Below the pieces are notes generated by a model. It was not told the DNA's origin. It saw only the letters and a list, made by a program, of their open reading frames with translations, and made no database searches. This document shows, one piece after another, positions 45,344 to 63,962 of a stretch of DNA of 64,000 bases; position 1 is the first letter of the stretch, and every line of letters begins with the position of its first letter. The translations under genes were made by a program, and so were the position numbers. The stretch is taken from positions 146,587-210,586 of IMG/VR virus record IMGVR_UViG_3300042350_004191, one strand, 5' to 3'. This DNA comes from a virus.

Positions 45344-45384
45344 CTTGAGATTTTTAAAAATTTCAGGATAAATCATTAATATAG

Positions 45385-45742
45385 ATCTTTGACAAAAAAA
45401 ATCACGATTCGGTAGCAGTTCATTACCGAATCAGGATAACAATCTTTTCTTGTTGGTGCGTTGGGAAAGTTATCCGAGCTAGGGGAGCCAAGCTGCGTTA
45501 AGCTATGATCCTATGCATTGATACAACACAAGATATGGACGAAGTTGTGTTCTGCGTATCGCGGAGCCTTCGTTGAGTGATAGGACAAATTCTAGGATAA
45601 AACCTATCAAAACCAACATTTGGGTTAATTCTGTAAATGGAGCCGACATGAGTATAAGGGTGATCTTAAGCAGTCTTATATCTCCACATACGAGTGGTTG
45701 GAATTAGTCCTGAATCGTCGCGGGTAAACGATTCAATTTTTT
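45385..45742 (+). ncRNA. unidentified structured RNA upstream of tRNA-Ser
   Basis: About 360 bases without a plausible gene, markedly more GC-rich than the flanks. Clear helices include GATTCGGTA/TACCGAATC (45406-45432), GGATAAC/GTTATCC (45434-45475), TCCTAT/ATAGGA (45509-45585) enclosing GATAC/GTATC (45520-45560) and AACAC/GTGTT (45525-45551), and TATAAG/CTTATA inside TGGAG/CTCCA near 45637-45685. It ends in an intrinsic terminator one base before tRNA-Ser. A promoter-like TTGAGA/GATAAA pair lies at 45345-45372. I could not match it to tmRNA, RNase P RNA or a group I intron. Confidence 0.58.
45711..45742 (+). terminator. Rho-independent terminator of the structured RNA
   Basis: Stem TGAATCGT/ACGATTCA with a 9-base loop, followed by ATTTTTT. 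Confidence 0.75.
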
Positions 45743-45743
45743 A

Positions 45744-45828
45744 GGAAGCGTACTCAAGCGGCTTAAGAGAACTGTCTACTAAACAGTCGAACAGAAATGT
45801 TCCGTGAGTTCGAATCTCACCGCTTCCG
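45744..45828 (+). tRNA. tRNA-Ser, apparent anticodon ACU
   Basis: 85 bases with a 7-bp acceptor (GGAAGCG/CGCTTCC), D-arm with GG, anticodon stem ACTGT/ACAGT, a long class II variable arm (GAACA-GAAA-TGTTC), T-loop TTCGAAT and discriminator G, all as in serine tRNAs. The loop CTACTAA gives anticodon ACU at 45778-45780 in place of the usual GCU. CCA is not encoded. Confidence 0.88.
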
Positions 45829-56555: not shown

Positions 56556-56954
56556 TTAAATCTTTGGTAAAAATTTAGCAGTAGTATTGTTTTTATCTTG
56601 ACCCCAATCTACTAATAAAACATCAATCTTTGCCATTATACAAAGAGTGCAAACTTCAACACTGTCATCAATATGAAGTTCACTTTTGAGTTGTTTTAAA
56701 AATGGAACTTTATTTGTTCCTTCTGTGCATACAATTGATTTAATAGGAATTTTATATCCTTTACAGAAATCATTTACTTGTTCTTTGTTTGACCAATTTC
56801 TAAAAGTTACTATATGAATCTCAGATCCTTTTTTGTGTTGATCCATAAGATAGTTAATCACCCTTGGAACAGGCGTTAATGTTTCACCACCCCAAGCACC
56901 GTTTGAAGTAGCGGCAATCGTATCATCAAAATCGCAAGTGATTACCTTTTTCAT
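56556..56954 (-). CDS. HAD-family phosphatase
   Basis: 132 residues. Motif I CDFDDTIAA (7-15), motif II IVTFRNW (about 48-54), a lysine in NKVPFLKQL (about 81-89) and motif IV LHIDDSVEV (about 93-101). Small phage HAD proteins include 5' nucleotidases and the phosphatase half of T4 Pnk. The substrate cannot be told. It overlaps the nuclease-like gene upstream by 4 bases. Confidence 0.8.
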   Translation of the reverse strand: MKKVITCDFDDTIAATSNGAWGGETLTPVPRVINYLMDQHKKGSEIHIVTFRNWSNKEQVNDFCKGYKIPIKSIVCTEGTNKVPFLKQLKSELHIDDSVEVCTLCIMAKIDVLLVDWGQDKNNTTAKFLPKI

Positions 56955-57866: not shown

Positions 57867-58880
57867 TTAAATGTTTGTCTGATCACCAGAAAAAATAATA
57901 TCATTTGGTTTTAATCCATTAATATTTTGATTAACCAAATCTTTTTTAATAATATCTTTTAATTGATCAAAGGAACCTGCTTCCAATGATGTTTCATAAA
58001 AATTATTAATTCGAAATATTCCTACTTTTTCAAATACATCACATTTGTTGATGATTACTTTGGTCGCACCTGAAAGATTTACAGCCTTATTTAATCTTCC
58101 AAAGTTTAACCAATTCACAAGTCTTTTTCTACCTGTGGTAGAACCAAACTCTTGACCAAGTTCAATTAATTGGTTGAGTTTTTCATCATTCCAAAGACAT
58201 TCTGGAAACAATGGATCGACACCACTTTTGGTATCATAAATTTTTGCTACACCGATAATGTCACGAATTTTCTTCGGTGAAAATCCAAGTGAACACGCAT
58301 TATGGGGAAATGTTTCAGAACTTGTTACATAAGGATAATTTCCATAGTTAACATCCAACCATATGCTTTGAGCACCTTCACAAAGAATTTTTCCTTCTAG
58401 TTTTCCATCCCAAAGAAAGTCTTTTAATGGATTAAAATTTGCTTTGCTAATCTGAATGCCAACACGATTTGCTTTGTCTGCATAACAAGGGGCAATACCC
58501 TGACCAGTAGTTCCAAGTTTAGGTTTCAGATGTTTCAGATCATATTCGATATGTGCATCTGTGATCACATGAACATTTGGATGAACTTTTACCAAAGACG
58601 TATCAAAACCATTTTGTTTTAAGTATTCAATTTCTTTGAGAAATTTATCGACATTCAAAACACAGTTTGGACCGATAACAGATTTTTTTCCGTGAAAAAC
58701 ACCAGAAGGAATCAGATGAGTTTTATATTTTTTCCCATCAAGATAAACAGTATGACCAGCATTTGGTCCACCATTCCAGCGACAGACCATATCATAGTCT
58801 TTCGCCATTGCGCTTGAAATTTTACCCTTGCCTTCATCCCCCCAAGCAAGACCGACAATTACATCAACATGTTTAATCAT
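57867..58880 (-). CDS. purA: adenylosuccinate synthetase, short archaeal/phage type
   Basis: 337 residues from the ATG at 58880; two in-frame ATGs 6 and 24 bases upstream are possible. It is shorter than bacterial PurA (about 430) and like archaeal PurA and phage PurZ forms (about 340). The P-loop is GLAWGDEGKGKI with the catalytic Asp kept (Ser or Gly in canonical PurZ). Further sites are GGPNAGHTVYLDG (catalytic His), GTTGQGIAPCYADK, YPYVTSSETF and GSTTGRKR. It joins IMP and Asp using GTP to make adenylosuccinate. A PurZ0-like role with dGMP cannot be excluded. The start overlaps the SemiSWEET-like gene. Confidence 0.85.
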   Translation of the reverse strand: MIKHVDVIVGLAWGDEGKGKISSAMAKDYDMVCRWNGGPNAGHTVYLDGKKYKTHLIPSGVFHGKKSVIGPNCVLNVDKFLKEIEYLKQNGFDTSLVKVHPNVHVITDAHIEYDLKHLKPKLGTTGQGIAPCYADKANRVGIQISKANFNPLKDFLWDGKLEGKILCEGAQSIWLDVNYGNYPYVTSSETFPHNACSLGFSPKKIRDIIGVAKIYDTKSGVDPLFPECLWNDEKLNQLIELGQEFGSTTGRKRLVNWLNFGRLNKAVNLSGATKVIINKCDVFEKVGIFRINNFYETSLEAGSFDQLKDIIKKDLVNQNINGLKPNDIIFSGDQTNI

Positions 58881-59145
58881 ATTCATTAAATTTAAACCAA
58901 GCATACACCAAAATACTGCACATAATCAAACCTACAGTATAATTTAAAAACCACCAAAGACCAAAAGTGGTCAAGAACATATAAACCATTCCTGAAATAT
59001 AGCCACCAATAGACATTAAAATTAACATTAAAGAAACATCTTTAGATGATTTATTTTTGAATATTTTTACGATTTGTGGAATATAACAAAGCATAAAAAA
59101 CAGCATCATCAATATTCCGAAGAATTCTGCTAAAATAGTTTTCAT
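58873..59145 (-). CDS. SemiSWEET/PQ-loop-like membrane protein
   Basis: 90 residues with three predicted membrane helices (about 5-24, 38-60, 65-84). A PQ motif in the first (MLCYIPQIVKIFKNKSSKDV) matches SemiSWEET and PQ-loop sugar-transporter families, which dimerise to form a pore. Substrate unknown. It overlaps the genes on both sides, so it is part of the purA operon. Confidence 0.75.
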   Translation of the reverse strand: MKTILAEFFGILMMLFFMLCYIPQIVKIFKNKSSKDVSLMLILMSIGGYISGMVYMFLTTFGLWWFLNYTVGLIMCSILVYAWFKFNEYD

Positions 59146-59405: not shown

Positions 59406-59428
59406 CCAAAAATTTATTATTTTTGGCG
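59406..59428 (-). terminator. hairpin over the stop of the HNH gene, possible terminator
   Basis: GCCAAAAAT/ATTTTTGGC stem with a short AT loop overlapping the HNH stop codon. The flanking T run is weak. Confidence 0.4.
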
Positions 59429-59980
59429 TTGGTTAATAGGTTGATAAATTTTTAATTTTTTTAATCTTTTTATAACTGCAACATCAGAAGCACCAACTAT
59501 TTTTCCTATTTTAAGATTACTTAATTTTTGAATTACGTGTAAATCATATAAATCAAAATTATCCCATTCGATTTGAGATTTTCTTTTTGCGGCACAAGTT
59601 TTTGAACAAGTTATAAGATAATTTGCTTTTTGCTTATTACAAATTGGACAATATGTTTTTCTTTTTCTTTTTTCTTTTAAATCTACAAATTTTGGAATAT
59701 TTTTTGGGATATTAGTTTTACCCGCATGATATTCTCTGTGACAGTTAGCACACAATAAAACACAATTTTCTAACTCTTTTAATAATAATTTCCATTGTTT
59801 AGGATTGGCTCTTATTCCACCAAAAGATAATGTTTTTTGTGAAGGATCAATATGATGTATATCAAAAGCTTCTTCACATTTATCATAACCACATATACAA
59901 CACTTTCCACCAAATCCCTCAACAATTAAATTTTTAGTATCTTTTCTCCAAGCCTTAACACGATCTGCATTTATACTCAT
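59417..59980 (-). CDS. HNH endonuclease with C-terminal zinc/DNA-binding region
   Basis: 187 residues. A zinc-framed HNH domain: KCCICGYDKCEEAFDIHHID (about 26-45), then CVLLCANCHREYHAG (about 73-87). A second Cys cluster follows (YCPICNKQ; CSKTC), then a helix-turn-helix-like end (KIGKIVGASDVAVIKRLKKL). This is the layout of free-standing homing endonucleases of T4-like phages. It lies downstream of tRNA-Asn and the large RNA on the same strand. Confidence 0.88.
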   Translation of the reverse strand: MSINADRVKAWRKDTKNLIVEGFGGKCCICGYDKCEEAFDIHHIDPSQKTLSFGGIRANPKQWKLLLKELENCVLLCANCHREYHAGKTNIPKNIPKFVDLKEKRKRKTYCPICNKQKANYLITCSKTCAAKRKSQIEWDNFDLYDLHVIQKLSNLKIGKIVGASDVAVIKRLKKLKIYQPINQRQK

Positions 59981-60113: not shown

Positions 60114-60834
60114 ATTAAATTTTCGGCTGTTTTTATCCGCCATCATTTTCTTATCCAGAATCAAGCGGGACTCCCTATCTTTTCAGACGAGTCAACTGAC
60201 GCACACCGTATGCGAGTCATGGCAACTATCCCCCTTATTGCTGTAACGAACAGCTTCTATTCATCAGTGGGTTCTGACTAGAATCTCGTTAGGATTCTCG
60301 GATTAATTATGAGACGGAAGATCGTGAGGAAGTGGCACTTTAGGCTATGTGCCTAACGCCGAACCAACAGCCGAAGCACCGCATCTTCACCCTTTCGGTT
60401 AACACGGTTTGTATTTCTACAACGTCTCAAAAATTGGTGTTTTTGTCGCAAACGGGACCAGACTGATGATTAAGTTGCGCCTTAATCGGCTGGCTTCTGG
60501 TTGGCAATATGCCAACATCAGAAAAACACAGAACCCTTATACAAGGGTTTTAGGTACTATCGACCTTTGGCTTTTTCCTTACCCAGAACCTACACTCTTC
60601 TTTTTTGACTCTCATTAGTAGTCTTATTCACTGTGGAACTCTATATGTCTGCCAGAACACGGACACGTATCCGTTACATAGAGAGGTAGAGTTGCATACC
60701 TTTTTATAAACCAATCCATTTATTACAGAGTTGTTAATTGGTTAGATCTTTCTCTGACCTGACGGGTTTCTCGGCAGGGTTTGTTTGATGTCGGCTAATC
60801 ACCCCGACACCAAAGATTAAAATTTTCAAAGAAC
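60114..60834 (-). ncRNA. large structured RNA (GOLLD/ROOL-like candidate)
   Basis: About 720 bases with no credible gene, far richer in G and C than any neighbour. It is preceded by a consensus promoter and runs into tRNA-Asn. Many strong helices are visible: TGTCGG/CCGACA (60789-60809), AACCCTT/AAGGGTT (60532-60549), GATTAAG/CTTAATC (60468-60487), TTGGC/GCCAA (60501-60515), and CTCTATATGT/ACATAGAG enclosing CGGA/TCCG near 60640-60685. Size, ornate folding, phage location and tRNA adjacency match the GOLLD and ROOL classes. The exact class needs a covariance search. Confidence 0.7.
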
Positions 60835-60840
60835 TAATAT

Positions 60841-60868
60841 ATCTTATCAGAAACTGAAAAAGAGTCAA
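60841..60868 (-). promoter_or_regulatory. promoter of the large structured RNA
   Basis: TTGACT, 16-base spacer, TAAGAT; predicted start near 60834. Confidence 0.65.
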
Positions 60869-63687: not shown

Positions 63688-63716
63688 AGTATATCGGAAC
63701 CTTAAGGGCAAAGCAA
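63688..63716 (-). promoter_or_regulatory. small-gene operon promoter, leaderless
   Basis: TTGCTT, 17-base spacer, TATACT; the ATG begins 7 bases after the -10 box. Confidence 0.6.
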
Positions 63717-63731
63717 GAATTAAATTAATTG

Positions 63732-63962
63732 TCATTCTTCGTTCTCTTCCACTACAATCGGCACATCAGTCCAATGCGGCTTTCCACATTCAAGGCATCG
63801 CACCCCTTGCTGAAGTGTGTCTTGATAGTATACTCCACCGCTATTGAGTTTACCCCCAACCGCCTTGCGAACCCAACGCAAACCAGCGAATACGCCGCCT
63901 GTGACGCAATAATGCTTACCCATGGTTACTGTATCTCCTGTAACAATGTAATCTTGACTCAT
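63732..63962 (-). CDS. GC-rich hypothetical protein with CxxC, 76 aa
   Basis: Starts MSQDYIVTGDTVTMGKHYCV. A Gly-rich middle and RCLECGKPHW provide one cysteine pair plus a His. Base composition is close to half G+C, unlike all neighbouring genes, and it uses GC-ending codons. A recent acquisition is likely. Function unknown. Confidence 0.6.
   Translation of the reverse strand: MSQDYIVTGDTVTMGKHYCVTGGVFAGLRWVRKAVGGKLNSGGVYYQDTLQQGVRCLECGKPHWTDVPIVVEENEE

Follow-up and report, generated by a model that had tools for sequence, protein, structure and literature searches.

A mosaic of structured RNA modules upstream of tRNA-Asn in a T4-type phage and its relatives

A large structured non-coding RNA, with a secondary structure backed by covariation, is encoded directly 5′ of a tRNA-Asn gene in the 64,000-nucleotide stretch of phage DNA analysed here (the window; bases 146,587-210,586 of a 210,586-base IMG/VR virus record). 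Both its structure and its modularity are well supported: the RNA is built as a mosaic of structured modules, each self-contained and gained or lost whole. It matches no known family in the searches described below and appears to represent a new viral RNA class.

The phage is of the large T4 type and encodes a gp43-type DNA polymerase, UvsX and a DnaB-type helicase, with the Gp23 major capsid protein encoded outside the window in the same record. Because it carries an adenylosuccinate synthetase assigned to a PurZ-type PHROG (phrog_1211; 57867-58904, minus strand), the phage may have diaminopurine DNA; its polymerase is of the gp43 type. Elsewhere in the window, positions 63701-63950 have a G+C content of 0.48-0.49 against 31% for the genome and overlap short ORFs; a small gene acquired recently may lie here.

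The RNA unit upstream of tRNA-Asn

On the minus strand a promoter (60868-60841) is followed by a boxA-like element (60836-60823), about 700 nt of G+C-rich non-coding sequence and tRNA-Asn(GTT) (60113-60039), which begins 8 nt past the conserved 3′ end of the RNA. The structured unit runs from 60836 to 60122 (~715 nt), with the strand and coordinates given in the original prediction, which had proposed a large structured RNA feeding into this tRNA; homologues and covariation bear out that part of it. Its elevated G+C content, also noted there, is 38-47% across 60125-60750 compared with 22-33% in most flanking segments. No credible gene crosses the region in the window or in the homologues, again as predicted: the longest open stretch on the sense strand is 40 codons in the window and 40-53 in the homologues, and an ORF on the plus strand (60409-60618) has 69 aa and a TTG start.

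The sigma-70-type promoter, TTGACT-16-TAAGAT, is as the prediction described it but weak on its own since the region holds fewer promoter-like sites than shuffles do (2 vs 4.1); support comes from the relatives, which keep a promoter at the same place (L004, L007, L009 and L084; TTGACT-16-TAAATT in relatives). Folding energy is likewise a weak argument. The unit folds moderately better than shuffles and without strand specificity (single-sequence z of -2.9 on the minus and -2.6 on the plus strand, 20 shuffles), so the case for a structured RNA is carried by homologues and covariation, not by folding alone.

Retrieval guided by PurA/PurZ placed the long form directly 5′ of tRNA-Asn in six other contigs; the copy in L003 is cut at its 5′ end, and one more contig, L002, has the same sequence as the window. 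L004, L005 and L006 are identical across the RNA, which leaves as independent forms the window, L004 and L007/L009. Long invariant blocks persist among these forms, other parts are gained or lost whole, and double changes occur in 12 helical pairs within this small set. The tRNA-Asn behind the long form has two different sequences. The genes at L007:7931-8004, L009:9062-9135 and L084:6451-6522 differ from the one in the window and occupy the same place behind the RNA, so that within the tRNA cluster one gene has replaced another. Upstream of purA in L087-L091, GC-rich spots were considered as further copies of the RNA and rejected, as they are tRNA clusters. Separately, Rfam marks tmRNAs at L086:3754-4206 and L089:12963-13404 that ARAGORN does not report, and phage tmRNAs with a near-identical 24-residue tag occur in other purA relatives (L097, L099, L112, L116 and L121).

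From its 5′ end the RNA carries hairpin H1 (GGTGTCGG..CCGACATC; 60784-60815), with compensatory changes in the relatives (columns 94-103 with 113-122 of alignment A2). This is followed by a 51-nt pseudoknot-like module (60707-60757) in which CAGAG/CTCTG is interleaved with AACCAAT/ATTGGTT in alignments A1 and A2, a pairing read off the sequence, as the stems are invariant and so give no covariation test. The module is missing as a clean gap in L004, L005 and L006. Next come a 5′ structured region with a conserved CGGATACGTGTCCG hairpin (60612-60706) and a middle structured region (60430-60600), where the alignment of relatives shows a GATTAAGGCGCAACTTAATC hairpin with an A-U to U-A switch and another hairpin is replaced in L004. 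No copy of the 5′ region or of the middle region (model R2) was found outside the window's own lineage. Modules M2 and M1, discussed below, complete the RNA; all of these elements lie on the minus strand.

The boxA-like element, TAGTTCTTTGAAAA (60823-60836, minus strand), is the sole exact match in the window. It lies just downstream of the promoter and is kept in the homologues (L004, L007 and L009), and its identity as boxA is suggested by motif resemblance only; at two mismatches the short motif occurs 20 times in the window against 12.2, a modest over-representation. Among more distant relatives, most arrays have one boxA-like element on the sense strand, with TAGTTCTTTTACA occurring once in L159, L161, L163, L164, L168, L169, L171, L175 and L176; the motif has no match in L160, L166, L167 or L173. 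A motif scan of the window also located a second such element, TAGATCTTTGACAA (45382-45395, plus strand), at the head of a second structured RNA of ~350 nt (45395-45740, plus strand) with tRNA-Ser(ACT) downstream (45744-45828, plus strand). This second RNA has a fold z of -3.97, no Rfam match and homologues in L004/L006, L007 and L009, and its first hairpin is switched from GATTCGGTA/TACCGAATC to GATTTGGT/ACCAAATC. The phage thus has at least two units with the layout of boxA-like element, structured RNA and tRNA.

Modules and their exchange between phages

The conserved 3′ domain, module M1 (60122-60306, minus strand), ends in CAGCCGAA and is defined by a covariance model, covariation and 14 aligned copies; it measures ~140-200 nt, with a compact core of 100 nt. 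The model detected a copy in L084 at E 2e-15; an nhmmer profile of the whole RNA, built from a single lineage, had given no match there. The predicted L084 transcription unit consists only of promoter, boxA-like TAGTTCTTTTACAA, M1 and tRNA-Asn and, at about 165-170 nt, is the shortest relative. A DNA pattern for the P2 hairpin yielded 10 further contigs, and the model confirmed each of them (L159-L169, E 1e-16 to 2e-24), while L177, found via another module, has a diverged M1 with a different P2 sequence. Two M1 copies lie ~4 kb apart in the record of L166 (G033:C1:52769-52872 and 56815-56919).

Compensatory changes are present in three helices of M1. Across the copies P1, P3 and P5 have 8, 10 and 7 distinct stems, and for each helix the arms pair far better with their own partners than with permuted ones (0/5000). 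P2 and P4, taken alone, give no significance in this permutation test; P2 hardly varies, in part because most of the distant copies were collected via the P2-hairpin pattern. In a MAFFT alignment not fitted to structure, 93.4% of P2-P5 cells are paired, and double-change cells number 25 against 8.8 ± 2.2 in shuffles, so that the covariation among homologues expected of such an RNA is present. The P2-P5 score of 0.318 exceeds the 0.16 of shuffles and the at most 0.095 of slid controls, relatedness being controlled by the latter and not by the shuffles, and the signal is lost on sliding.

Each of the 14 copies has YAGCCG at its end, 35-86 nt past P5 whatever intervenes, and the terminal GCCG is complementary to the P5 loop CGGY (Y, either C or U, facing G). 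This pairing is probably a pseudoknot that closes M1; because it hardly varies, the evidence for it is complementarity and not covariation. Behind M1 stands a tRNA-Asn (two different genes), a tRNA-Cys or no tRNA (L160, L163, L165 and L167), and in L166 an antisense tRNA. Having various tRNAs or none behind it, M1 is an independent element. A hammerhead-like CTGATGA..GAA within M1 was rejected by eye, as CTGAT pairs in hairpin P2 and no Rfam hammerhead is found; nor does the RNA match group I or II introns or any other Rfam ribozyme.

Module M2 (60311-60428, minus strand; 118 nt bounded by GAGACG..CGTCTC) occurs within the lineage in the window only, being missing from L004, L007 and L009, and has homologues in other phages. 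One, at 79% over 106 nt (E 2.5e-18), lies in L159; a pattern scan revealed those in L170 and L171. In these three, M2 does not adjoin M1, as it does in the window; M3 follows it or other modules lie alongside. Module M3 is present in L159, L161, L163, L164, L168, L169, L171, L175, L176 and L177, stands alone in L173, lies upstream of the M1 promoter in L084 and has 16 double-change cells vs 4.9. The modules have their own closing stems and are separated by short A/T-rich linkers, and they can stand alone, M1 in L084, L160 and L166 and M3 in L173. Chance pattern matches in coding-like sequence were rejected for M2 (L172) and M3 (L174). By eye, the arrays contain at least five other structured elements that recur and alternate 5′ of M1 or M3 (L159, L161, L163, L164, L168, L170, L171, L175 and L177). 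Exchange at this mosaic locus could be driven by the adjacent homing-type HNH nuclease, whose gene (59417-59980, minus strand) lies just downstream of tRNA-Asn.

The carriers of M1 differ in their capsid gene content. Gp23 was found in 3/3 records of the window lineage and in 0/9 other records with M1, several of which measure 113-178 kb, although the contigs are partial, so its absence is no proof of unrelatedness. A polymerase query gave no match in 16 other M1-bearing records, in a search run without a positive control. Given the nine records in which Gp23 was not found, M1 is not simply inherited with the T4-type core.

A proposed mechanism and its alternatives

The reading we prefer, with a probability of roughly 0.45, is a stable, RNase P-trimmed, Nus-antiterminated phage RNA of shuffled portable domains that acts in trans and most likely binds host factors. 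It builds on the conservation of the RNA, the covariation of M1 and M3, the gain and loss of modules, their presence in phages in which no Gp23 gene was found and the order of promoter, boxA-like element, RNA and tRNA; transcription, antitermination, processing and host binding in trans would be linked as follows. Transcription would start at the promoter at 60868-60841, and the boxA-like element would recruit host NusB/S10-type antitermination factors. In rRNA operons, antitermination of the boxA/NusB/S10 type operates across long untranslated structured RNA, and we propose that here too it would enable RNA polymerase to cross a long untranslated, highly structured region. RNase P, cutting at the 5′ end of tRNA-Asn, would define the 3′ end of the RNA just past M1. 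In trans the RNA would then offer a set of binding sites, most likely acting on host RNA-binding or defence factors as a decoy or scaffold; this role would keep the folds under selection, and recombination would swap whole domains (M1, M2, M3 and others) between phages. It speaks against host binding that none of the modules is similar to a host RNA known to Rfam. Nor can antitermination and RNase P trimming apply throughout, because L160, L166, L167 and L173 have no boxA match and in L160, L163, L165 and L167 no tRNA stands behind M1.

More tentatively, phages may share a pool of several or more unrelated portable RNA domains, carried in varying order on long, non-coding, antiterminated transcripts beside tRNAs, with each domain targeting a different host factor. 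If true, this pool would be the RNA counterpart of modular anti-host islands.

Other explanations account for parts of these data. In the window, L004, L007, L009 and L084 the RNA unit is flanked by promoter/boxA on one side and tRNA on the other, and the second unit precedes tRNA-Ser in the same layout, as would suit a cis-acting leader of a tRNA operon that modifies RNA polymerase or guides processing in the manner of rRNA leaders or HK022 put elements. We consider this unlikely, as M1 has no tRNA behind it in L160, L163, L165 and L167 and an antisense one in L166, M1 is kept across lineages that differ in the tRNA behind it, and ~700 nt far exceeds what a leader needs. Less probable again is that the modules are cut apart into an array of small RNAs that act singly, for example as antisense or protein-titrating sRNAs. 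In long arrays, a single unit with one boxA holds several modules, which speaks against separate RNAs even though closing stems, A/T-rich linkers and the stand-alone copies of M1 (L084, L160 and L166) and M3 (L173) would fit them.

GOLLD and ROOL are RNA cages (PMC12286853), and the RNA might act as they do without being homologous, with kissing loops and A-minor contacts building an RNA-only multimer (a cage or ring) during infection. Self-complementary tetranucleotides in conserved hairpin loops (GCGC in AAGGCGCAACTT, ACGT in CGGATACGTGTCCG) could kiss, and the size range, phage location, tRNA neighbourhood and, as in GOLLD, a conserved 3′ and variable 5′ part (PMC12286853) agree. Size is no argument for a multimer, however, because raiA is large yet monomeric (PMC12286853), and the idea seems doubtful to us given an L084 RNA that is M1 alone (~170 nt), whole-domain gain and loss that would alter any fixed quaternary geometry, and no homology to either family. 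The original prediction had gone further, naming the RNA a GOLLD/ROOL member or a new relative. This identification did not stand, and what resemblance there is (large, near tRNAs, conserved 3′ and variable 5′) is analogy only. For GOLLD (RF02032, cut-off 150 bits) the window gave no match at gathering or at E<=10, and for ROOL (RF03087, cut-off 99.1 bits) neither the window nor its relatives gave one, in searches run without a positive control from a GOLLD or ROOL genome. Whole-record searches with both models returned nothing in the window's record and nothing above cut-off in 13 related records; RF02032 had no match in G000, G001, G004 or G006 and reached at best 7.7 bits elsewhere (G030). 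A member too diverged for the Rfam models, which size and location would favour, is hardly credible, since these searches and permissive scans of the region and three homologue regions were empty and M1, with its compact 100-nt core, can stand alone.

The distribution of the modules suggests that horizontal exchange of RNA domains is a general process among viruses, and the conserved boxA-like element leads to a simple prediction on how phages transcribe long untranslated RNA. Stand-alone M1 (~165-170 nt) offers a small, tractable unit for structural, pull-down and knock-out work.

Comparison with known RNAs

Permissive Rfam scans (E<=10) of the window region and three homologue regions returned only tRNA above chance, and matches to Plastid-ycf2, rli22, DLEU1 and others were rejected as chance hits far below cut-off. 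The arrays of the other phages gave nothing above threshold; a sub-threshold SNORD126 match at L171:2985-3051 (minus strand; 34.5 bits, E 7e-4) is probably chance. At the DNA level, blastn against 50,697 GenBank phage records found nothing comparable, the window RNA, L171, L163 and L160 as queries giving tRNA matches or nothing. A pattern scan of 84,980 prokaryote species revealed no credible M1, its sole match (L178, from GTDB) being rejected as coding-like sequence with no model support.

To our knowledge, the giant phage RNAs known so far are single families of one architecture each, and their functions are still unknown; here, in contrast, is a locus of exchangeable domains in phages with different capsid genes. 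GOLLD forms an RNA-only 14-mer cage and ROOL an RNA-only 8-mer cage. ROOL is, like the RNA described here, a phage RNA near tRNA islands, of ~600 nt and with several pseudoknots proposed, but it gives no match and is not modular in the sense found here. GOLLD is a large structured phage or prophage RNA, often near tRNAs, with a conserved 3′ and a less conserved 5′ part (PMC12286853); it matches in neither sequence nor structure the present RNA, in which a conserved module of ~140-200 nt can stand alone and modules shuffle. The lncRNAs of Staphylococcus phage K and the ~800-nt ncRNA of Vibrio phage ICP1 are likewise large phage non-coding RNAs and have been likened to GOLLD and ROOL on position, size or abundance (PMC9241854, PMC7567579), but the M1 model (R3) has no match in either genome. 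T4 RNAs C and D (annotated rnaC and rnaD) are small stable RNAs encoded among the clustered tRNA genes of a T4-type phage; they lie downstream of tRNA-Arg and have no M1 match, the best scores being background elsewhere in the locus and R3 finding none. The boxA leaders of bacterial rRNA operons are a parallel in layout. The RNA is not rRNA (no Rfam match) and its boxA is one by likeness of motif, yet both systems bring together a promoter, a boxA-like element, a long structured untranslated RNA and a tRNA in one unit.
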